Shown here: positions 5,519-32,535 of the stretch, piece after piece
Layout of the letters: each line of letters opens with the position of its first letter
How positions within the stretch are numbered: the first letter of the stretch is position 1
Assembly (NCBI GenBank): GCA_027081275.1
Contig: JALWKV010000252.1
Location: 1-34,002, forward strand
DNA length: 34,002 bases
Direction: 5' to 3'
Source: Gammaproteobacteria bacterium
GTDB lineage: Bacteria; Pseudomonadota; Gammaproteobacteria; UWMA-0217
The notes under the pieces: model-generated
What the model was told of the DNA's origin: nothing
Database searches by the model: none
The model's input: only the letters and a program-made list of their open reading frames with translations
Program-made: the position numbers and the translations under genes

Positions 5519-6627
5519 AGCTCGGCCCCCTGCGCCTGTGCGCGCTGCTGCCGCGCCTTCGCCTCGGCCTTCACCTGCGCCAGATCCTCGTCCTCGGCCA
5601 TTTCGGGCCAGCCCTGCATGTGCCACTCCACCAGCTTGGCCATCATGTCGATATGCGGCTCGCCGGCGTTGAGCGCGGGGATGTAGGTGAAGGACTCGCC
5701 CCCCGCTTCGAGGAACGATTCGCGGTTGGTGATCGCGATCTCCTCCAGCGTCTCCAGACAGTCGGCGGAGAAGCCGGGGCTGAACACCTCGATGTTCCTG
5801 TAGCCCTCTTCCGGCATCGCCTTCAGCGTCTTGTCGAGGTAGGGCTTGAGCCACTCCTCGCGGCCGAAGCGCGACTGGAACGCCAGCCGCCAGCGCCCCT
5901 CCTCCAGCCCGAGCCGATCGACCAGCAGCCGCGCGGTTTTCTGGCACTGGCAGTAGTAGGGGTCGCCGCTGAGCAGGAAGCGCCGTGGCACGCCGTGAAA
6001 CGAGAAGACGATCTGCTCGGCGCGGCCGTGGGTCTCCCAGTGCCGCTCCAGATGGGTCGCCATCGCCTCGATATAGTCCGGATCGTCGTGGTAGCTGGAG
6101 ATGAAACGCAGCTCCGGCACCCAGCGCCACCTGCCCAGCACCTCGCCGACGGCGTCGAACACCGCCCCGGTGGTGCTGCCGGAGTATTGCGGATAGAGCG
6201 GCAGCACCAGCAGCCGCTGCACGCCGGCGTCGCGCAGCGATTCCAGCGCATCGGCGATCGACGGGTTGCCGTAGCGCATGCCCAGCTCGACCTCGATCCG
6301 CCCCGGATAGCGCTGCTCCAGCAGCTTGCCCAGCCGCGTCGCCTGCTGCCGCGAATGAACCAGCAGCGGCGATCCCTCCGCCATCCAGATGTTGCGATAG
6401 AGCTCGGCGGTCTTCTTCGGCCGCACATTGAGGATGACGAGGTTGAGGATCGGCCACCACAGTGGCCTGGGAATCTCGACCACGCGCGGATCGCTGAGGA
6501 ATTCACGCAGATAGCGCTTGACGGAGGCCGGCGTCGGCTCGTCCGGCGAACCGAGATTGGCCAGCAGCACGCCGGCCTTCGGCGTCAGGTCGTGGCGGTA
6601 GTTGGCGATGCCCTGATATCGGGACAT
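5515..6627 (-). CDS. hemH: Ferrochelatase
   Basis: The 370-residue enzyme inserts Fe2+ into protoporphyrin IX in the last step of protohaem synthesis. Family hallmarks include GVLLANLGSPDEPTP near the N-terminus, LPLYPQYSGSTTGAV, the active-site His in FSFHGVPRRFL, DPYYCQCQKTA, the QSRFGREEWLKPYLD segment, and the Glu-containing SPGFSADCLETLEEI near the C-terminus. AAGGAG 6 bp upstream fixes the ATG at 6627. The last 20-25 residues (Ala/Gln/Lys-rich) extend past the conserved fold. The gene is followed by the MoaB-like gene with a 4-bp overlap. A palindromic element begins only 31 bp upstream of the start codon, so the promoter must lie within or beyond that element. Confidence 0.96.
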   Translation of the reverse strand: MSRYQGIANYRHDLTPKAGVLLANLGSPDEPTPASVKRYLREFLSDPRVVEIPRPLWWPILNLVILNVRPKKTAELYRNIWMAEGSPLLVHSRQQATRLGKLLEQRYPGRIEVELGMRYGNPSIADALESLRDAGVQRLLVLPLYPQYSGSTTGAVFDAVGEVLGRWRWVPELRFISSYHDDPDYIEAMATHLERHWETHGRAEQIVFSFHGVPRRFLLSGDPYYCQCQKTARLLVDRLGLEEGRWRLAFQSRFGREEWLKPYLDKTLKAMPEEGYRNIEVFSPGFSADCLETLEEIAITNRESFLEAGGESFTYIPALNAGEPHIDMMAKLVEWHMQGWPEMAEDEDLAQVKAEAKARQQRAQAQGAEL

Positions 6628-18241: not shown

Positions 18242-18274
18242 AAAAAAAAGCGCGGCCGCCGTCGGGCGCCGCGC
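18242..18274 (-). terminator. Rho-independent terminator downstream of argB
   Basis: On the minus strand the arms GCGCGGC (18274-18268) and GCCGCGC (18256-18250) pair perfectly around a GC-rich 11-nt loop and are followed by eight T (18249-18242). It lies about 150 bp past the argB stop and separates that unit from the rplM promoter. The sequence between 18275 and 18423 is AT-richer than its surroundings and shows nothing else. Confidence 0.8.
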
Positions 18275-18423
18275 CAATCTACCACCAAAGGAGGATGGAG
18301 GATCCATGAATGACTAAGCCACCACACTTAATCATTATGTTAGTATTTTCGAATATTCGGTATTAGCTGTCAACACTTTTTCGCACTGCTGCCGGTCAAC
18401 CTTCTCCGGCCGGGCGACCGGGC

Positions 18424-26182: not shown

Positions 26183-26220
26183 CGCCGGCAGGCGATTTCG
26201 CGCGTCCGCCGCAACCTCGC

Positions 26221-26340
26221 GCAGCACAAGGATGTGCTGCCAGAAACAACGACAATAAGCCGTTGTTTCTGTGAGAAAAGGAAAAATCGCACTTTTTCCT
26301 TTTCGTGTGTCGCAAAGTCCTGGATGGACTTTTGCGACAC
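26221..26340. repeat. Intergenic hairpin array 1: four back-to-back hairpins after glgC
   Basis: Four stems follow each other with gaps of 0-3 nt. H0: gcagcaca/tgtgctgc (26221-26228, 26233-26240), perfect 8 bp. H1: cagaaacaacg/cgttgtttctg (26241-26251, 26261-26271), perfect 11 bp. H2: perfect 12-bp stem gaaaaggaaaaa/tttttccttttc (26275-26286, 26293-26304) with loop tcgcac. H3: 14-bp stem with one bulged A (26307-26320, 26326-26340), loop tggat. None is followed by a proper T-run, except that the H2 arm itself is T-rich. The array lies between glgC (stop 26182) and the OmpA-domain gene (ATG 26381) and would be in the 3' region of the glgC mRNA. H2 recurs with the same loop in the array at 32333-32451. 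Confidence 0.8.
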
Positions 26341-26380
26341 CCTCTACAATCCAGGGGTAAAGATCACTCTGGAGTGCCCG

Positions 26381-32186: not shown

Positions 32187-32332
32187 ACAGAGTGGCCGCG
32201 AGTATAGGCACTACCCCACAGCCGAAATAGCGATCAGTCCTCAGTTAACGACAAACTCTCGACAGCCATGCAGCCGGCGCCGGGGCGGCGTAAAGAAAGC
32301 CTGATCAAAACAGACTTTTCCGCGGCACAAGG

Positions 32333-32480
32333 GCAGGCACTTGCTCCTGCAATACCTGCATTCCCCACGTCCATGCAGGTCAGGCGTCGCCAGAATCGAT
32401 CGCAACGAGCGCATGATTCTGTAAGAAACGAAAATCGCACTTTTCGTTTCTCATCCCCTGACAATTACATGGATGAATTG
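32333..32480. repeat. Intergenic hairpin array 2, sharing the TCGCAC-loop hairpin
   Basis: A chain of hairpins fills much of the 410-bp gap between the divergent wzy-like and CopD-like genes. In order: gcagg/cctgc (32333-32350); acctgcat/atgcaggt, perfect (32354-32361, 32373-32380); cagaatc/gattctg, perfect (32391-32397, 32415-32421); agaaacgaaaa/ttttcgtttct, perfect 11 bp (32424-32434, 32441-32451) with loop tcgcac; and caatt/aattg (32462-32480). The fourth has the same loop and a similar purine-rich stem as H2 of the array at 26221. Like it, it follows TTCTGT at the 3' arm of the preceding hairpin. The stretch 32187-32332 shows nothing else. Confidence 0.72.
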
Positions 32481-32535
32481 ATCAGAGACCCCTAAACTTG
32501 GGCGTCCAGTGCAACAGATTCTCGGGAGACACTCC

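Follow-up and report, generated by a model that had tools for sequence, protein, structure and literature searches.

Bacterial MITEs such as the QMITEs of Coxiella, Bcr1, ERIC, RUP and NEMIS are short, non-coding sequences that occur in many intergenic copies and combine terminal inverted repeats (TIRs) and target duplications with strongly folding predicted transcripts. The element analysed here shares all these features; however, whereas the host ranges of these MITEs are generally narrow, it carries one core across bacterial classes on at least four unrelated sets of ends and, moreover, possesses conserved CsrA-type loops. With respect to these loops, the closest parallels are CsrB, RsmY and RsmZ, the products of single-copy sRNA genes that sequester CsrA/RsmA and that likewise have GGA in the apical loops of several hairpins; in particular, the ANGGAN hexaloop AAGGAU of RsmZ-2 resembles the loops of the element (PMC3791407). 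In contrast to these sRNAs, the element is dispersed and mobile, with two GGA hairpins per copy and no demonstrated promoter or terminator. TwoAYGGAY (RF01731) and Bacillaceae-1 (RF01690) similarly contain two CsrA-type hairpins per RNA, with a function proposed from the motif, and are not described as transposable in the report concerned (PMC4333381); the element differs from both in architecture, and no Rfam family, TwoAYGGAY included, matches over the elements at E <= 1. MITEs and CsrA-binding RNAs are each already known, whereas neither Rfam nor the open-access literature searched yielded a MITE core with CsrA-type loops that occurs across classes on different ends.

Window copies and the dispersed five-hairpin element

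The window, that is, the whole analysed stretch of 34,002 nucleotides, contains two copies of the element (Table 1). The first-pass annotation had described two hairpins with different stems closing the same loop, TCGCAC, each preceded by TTCTGT(G/A)AGAAA with TTCTG as the end of the 3' arm of the previous hairpin. All of this is borne out: the two are hairpin 3 of the respective copies, and the TTCTG belongs to hairpin 2. The interval first noted is only a part of copy 2, the whole element extending from about 32295 to 32492.

Table 1. Features of the two element copies in the window
Feature	Position	Strand	Description
Element copy 1	26210..26344	+	end type b, stem type II; truncated at 5' end
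Hairpin 1, copy 1	26221..26240	+	stem GCAGCAC/GTGCTGC; hexaloop AAGGAT at 26228-26233 (CsrA-like ANGGAN)
Hairpin 2, copy 1	26241..26271	+	arms CAGAAACAACG ... CGTTGTTTCTG
Hairpin 3, copy 1	26275..26304	+	12 bp; GAAAAGGAAAAA-TCGCAC-TTTTTCCTTTTC
Hairpin 4, copy 1	26307..26340	+	GTGTCGCAAAGTCC-TGGAT-GGACTTTTGCGACAC; apical-loop GGA at 26322-26324
3' terminal inverted repeat, copy 1	26330..26344	-	GAGGGTGTCGCAAAA
Element copy 2	32295..32492	+	end type a, stem type I; diverged; insertion in hairpin 1 region
Candidate 4-bp target duplication TAAA	32291..32294		5' of copy 2; partner 32493..32496 (TAAA, 3' side)
Hairpin 2, copy 2	32391..32421	+	CAGAATC ... GATTCTG, decayed in part
Hairpin 3, copy 2	32424..32451	+	11 bp; AGAAACGAAAA-TCGCAC-TTTTCGTTTCT
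Hairpin 4, copy 2	32458..32486	+	CTGACAATT...ATGGAT...AATTGATCAG; GGA at 32471-32473

A genome-wide pattern search of the kind suggested as a check recovers 49 occurrences of AAATCGCACTTT in the genome (G000; 3.19 Mb, 297 contigs), compared to none of the reversed control pattern, and these sites, 48 of which were aligned, always lie within a dispersed element of approximately 150-165 bp. In an alignment of 48 copies, the complete element consists of five consecutive hairpins, HP0 to HP4, and comes in two stem types, namely type I, with HP1 GCGGCACAnGGAnGTGCCGC, HP3 GAAAAACGAAAA-TCGCAC-TTTTCGTTTTTC and HP4 CTCTGACAATTCAGGGATGAATTGTTCAGAG, and type II, with HP1 GCAGCACAAGGATGTGCTGC, HP3 GAAAAGGAAAAA-TCGCAC-TTTTTCCTTTTC and HP4 TGTCGCAAAGTCCTGGACGGACTTTTGCGACA. 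A covariance model (R1) derived from an alignment with the loops of HP1, HP3 and HP4 replaced by N, and hence loop-blind, detects about 78 copies in the same genome at E < 1e-3; most are 150-165 bp long, and they are non-coding and nearly all intergenic. Copy 1 is matched by the loop-masked model at 26221-26335 (88.7 bits, E 9.6e-15), being itself, with its loops masked, among the 20 rows used to build the model; it retains the 3' TIR and has lost the 5' TIR, and its RNA fold has z = -7.75. Copy 2 is matched at 32384-32484 (44.5 bits, E 1.5e-5); its ends and flanking duplications were read by eye from the sequence, and GTAA/CTAA is an alternative register of the duplication. Elsewhere in the window, positions 18243-18306 (-) weakly resemble RF02278 (Betaproteobacteria toxic small RNA), with an E-value of 0.0066 and a score under the gathering threshold.

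Beyond this genome, the congener G002 contains 11 exact sites, mostly with a third set of stems, and the longer pattern is present in 9 of 369 genomes of a class-wide sample, in several families. Among the matches listed for a collection of named genomes are Gammaproteobacteria MAGs, Zetaproteobacteria including Mariprofundus sp. EBB-1 and M. micogutta ET2, a MAG labelled Deltaproteobacteria (S146_70) and a Nitrospira MAG. In a scan of the phylum with R1, 43 of 299 genomes, the majority from a single family, contained matches at E <= 1e-6; since only 13 candidates were scored per genome, the copy numbers are lower bounds. Six matches (L121, L128, L135, L137, L138 and L143) were dismissed as fortuitous, as they have no hairpin array. 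A phage origin was likewise discarded, only one of 2.9 million viral contigs in IMG/VR containing the longer pattern (L266:3543-3565).

Ends, target duplications and transposon partners

The TIRs and the target duplications identify the element as a MITE, a transposon that is non-autonomous. Four sets of TIRs were identified, each present at both ends of the element. With ends set by the inverted repeats and with 3' flanks shuffled among copies as the control, type b ends (GAGG[GT]TGTCGCAA) are flanked by exact 5-bp duplications in 22 of 34 copies (0.8 when shuffled), and type d ends (GATGACTTCGTA) by exact 6-bp duplications in 5 of 8 (0.9). Exact 4-bp duplications accompany both type a (GGAA..CTCTGA; 25 of 45 copies against 4.4 when shuffled, mostly YTAR-like) and type c (CAGGCTGTTGAA; 7 of 8 against 2.0). 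Three lengths of duplication, 4, 5 and 6 bp, imply that at least three kinds of transposase have been involved.

For end type a, insertion sequences with closely matching TIRs and YTAR-like 4-bp duplications are present in host genomes: in G002 (L236:3-1188, ends GGAACCTCTGATCAATTG), in the MAG S146_70 (L242:173-1394, ends GGAATCTCTGATTTATTC) and in G094 (L258:818-2008, ends GGAAGCTCTGCAAAAGTC). The first two encode IS5-family transposases (NCBIfam NF033581, transpos_IS5_4), and the third is assigned to the IS5 family by PF01609 only. In contrast to the element, which has no transposase, these insertion sequences lack the hairpin core in all three cases, which means that the core is no leftover from the interior of an IS. 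No autonomous partner was found for end types b, c and d, and no PF01609 transposase in the draft genome of 297 contigs that harbours the window. The presence of one core on differing transposon ends suggests that it is the core, rather than the transposase, that is the conserved part.

Insertion of the element is neutral in orientation and almost always intergenic. A home-made ORF caller places genes on both sides of 87 copies; for these, the element strand relative to the upstream and downstream gene is same/same in 24, opposite/opposite in 23, opposite/same in 20 and same/opposite in 20. Elements with type b ends (L012, L054, L007, L027 and others) are often located inside the loop of a terminator-like palindrome, which they split, for example as CCCCCTTTGGAA|TGGAAAAGGGGG or CCCCTTTTCGAA|TCGAAAAGGGG; this suggests a structural target preference. 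In addition, GAGGGTGTCGCAAA occurs 126 times in G000 with at most one mismatch (control 1), apparently in excess of what five-hairpin copies of its end type explain, and shorter derivatives that carry the TIRs only probably exist in this genome.

As a possible reader of the hairpins, the first-pass annotation had named a REP-type transposase and had proposed a search for its gene. The genome indeed encodes one RAYT (NF047646, REP_Tyr_transpos; L050:11900-12730, on contig C108), and the element resembles REP/REPIN sequences in being a repeated intergenic palindrome. However, this RAYT is flanked on both sides by different palindromes, GTAGGGTG.../AACCCACC, which are likely its own REP family; furthermore, the element consensus lacks the GTAG/CGTC tag, and the copies do not adjoin the RAYT gene. 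Target duplications of 4-6 bp together with TIRs are typical of DDE transposons, whereas REPs are devoid of them. We therefore rejected this identity, and movement of the element as a REP by the genome's RAYT retains hardly any credibility. The palindrome CCCTCTCCCTTGAGGGAGAGGG is repeated at L050:14712-14733 and 6033-6054, in one case fused to a TCGCAC element copy at its 3' side, and a 147-aa IS200/IS605-type TnpA (Y1_Tnp, 135 bits) is encoded at L048:1474-1917 (contig C50).

Conserved loops and covarying stems

The more telling loops of the element are those of hairpins 1 and 4, A-N-GGA-N and CsrA-like, which the first-pass annotation had missed. Among loop-blind copies of the genome harbouring the window, the HP1 hexaloop reads A (53 of 58), N, G (56), G (53), A (56), N. 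In HP4, GGA is present in 64, 61 and 63 of 65 copies at its respective positions with variable flanks; A occupies loop position 1 in 38 of the 65 hexaloops but is not universal, most type II copies having C there; the HP4 loop of type II copies is TGGAC or TGGAT, with C-G as its closing pair. The same pattern was observed in 76 distinct copies that were picked mostly by TCGCAC and not by HP1 or HP4, and in 40 loop-blind copies from other genomes, where HP1 reads A (39 of 40), N, G (36), G (35), A (37), N and the HP4 region contains GGA in 35. By comparison, 305 other perfect hexaloop hairpins in loci of the own genome include AxGGAx once and TCGCAC not at all. Some copies, among them copy 2 of the window and the Nitrospira copy, have lost the GGA of hairpin 1. 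Shine-Dalgarno mimicry was considered and rejected, since there is free variation at the positions on either side of GGA.

The constancy of the TCGCAC loop, from which the search had started, is not strict. The loop holds in this lineage (exact in 50 of 76 loop-blind copies of the genome, 87-96% per position) but not across all hosts: the loop-blind copies of other genomes have mostly YCRCRY (CCACGC, TCACAC, CCGCGC), and only 2 of 40 have exact TCGCAC.

The reported covariation of the stems with pairing kept was confirmed, and the hairpin structure of the element is under selection. Over 24 pairs of HP1, HP3 and HP4 in 28 diverse copies, 96.4% of cells are paired versus 80.5% upon shuffling, and the covariation score is 0.466 versus 0.155, a value reached in none of 500 shuffles, while slid controls are 45-51% paired; HP2 was left out of the count because its register varies between groups. 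The 40 loop-blind copies from other genomes, in an alignment that was fitted to the model and therefore leans towards structure, yield 95.7% pairing and a score of 0.554 versus 0.149, again with 0 of 500 shuffles as high; over both sets, slid controls are 40-56% paired. In HP3 of these 40 copies, the three loop-proximal pairs are A-U in every copy, and most of the outer pairs covary. The five-hairpin architecture is kept across bacterial classes while the ends change, the covariation having been counted on hairpins 1, 3 and 4.

The mismatched pairs bear on the molecule at which this selection acts. In the stems of HP1 and HP3, three sets of copies contain 48, 44 and 26 G-U pairs on the GGA strand compared to 32, 30 and 6 A-C pairs, that is, 118 versus 68 overall, the third set (26 versus 6) being that of the loop-blind copies of other genomes; HP4 pairs were omitted owing to the misregistration of type II copies in this hairpin of alignment A4. 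In an RNA stem of the GGA strand, G-U is tolerated and A-C is not, whereas mutation alone would yield both equally. The G-U excess therefore speaks for selection acting on RNA of the GGA strand, although it is modest in two of the three sets and the copies are related.

Conceivably, the element could be a purely selfish MITE in which the hairpins act as DNA, as extruded single strands or cruciforms that aid transposition or bind a host factor, with no involvement of RNA. This explanation accommodates the genuine TIRs and target duplications, the orientation-neutral intergenic insertion, the palindromic terminal hairpins that contain the TIRs, and the overall scarcity of wobble pairs, owing to which pairing works on either strand. 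Nevertheless, transposases that differ enough to leave 4-, 5- and 6-bp duplications should not all need identical internal loops, the end-matching autonomous insertion sequences do without the core, ANGGAN shows variation, in two hairpins, at both N positions but not at A and GGA, and G-U pairs outnumber A-C pairs on one strand. We accordingly regard a purely DNA-level role as unlikely.

The core as a candidate CsrA-binding RNA module

The A-N-GGA-N hexaloop with variable N is the published recognition motif of RsmE/CsrA (PMC7652899, PMC3791407), and the element carries more than one A-N-GGA-N-like loop, in HP1 and, with GGA kept, in HP4. Each of the 20 element-bearing genomes checked encodes CsrA; given that CsrA is common in these groups, its presence discriminates only weakly. 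From the conserved loops, the covariation and the G-U excess, we infer that the hairpin core is selected as RNA and would be transcribed and bound by CsrA. The explanation that we favour, with moderate confidence, is that the core is an RNA module that bears two CsrA-type sites, is moved by different transposases and acts on Csr once it is transcribed. Under this hypothesis, a copy would be transcribed on the GGA strand, via read-through or from a promoter of its own, and hairpins 1 and 4 of the transcript would offer two CsrA/RsmA sites approximately 90-100 nt apart, of which the first, a hexaloop, has mainly C-G as its closing pair. The transcript could then titrate CsrA or, alternatively, place CsrA sites into neighbouring mRNAs, and hairpin 3 (AAAA-YCRCRY-TTTT) might be a further putative recognition element for another partner. 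A cis-acting mRNA element with fixed orientation was found to be unsupported; the copies show no strand bias with respect to their flanking genes, which speaks against any benefit in cis within mRNAs, so that titration, or a function in the life cycle of the element itself, appears more likely than a selected cis role.

A different RNA-level possibility is a structured RNA that stabilises or terminates mRNAs and whose loops are read by a protein other than CsrA. Stabilisation or destabilisation of mRNA has been reported as a route by which MITEs affect adjacent genes (PMC3733652), and both the very stable fold of copy 1 and the conservation of the AAAA-YCRCRY-TTTT hairpin, which has no known reader, are compatible with such a role. 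We consider it quite improbable, given that a strand bias relative to genes is absent and that the loops fit the CsrA hexaloop specifically. What remains of the initial view of a repeated structured element is, therefore, that its stems covary around conserved loops and that an RNA-binding protein reading these loops stays the favoured idea, the REP/RAYT example having been abandoned.

More broadly, and more tentatively than for the RNA module as such, the elements could form a mobile superfamily in which a CsrA-binding multi-hairpin RNA has spread across classes by repeatedly taking the ends of a locally active transposon, dozens of copies loading a genome with Csr sites and rewiring or titrating Csr. 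The element offers a direct test case of whether mobile elements seed post-transcriptional networks. If our interpretation is right, it would fill in a missing RNA family, one with no matching Rfam model, and transposons would have carried into several bacterial classes, at tens of copies per genome, a ready-made regulatory RNA module for CsrA, a global regulator.
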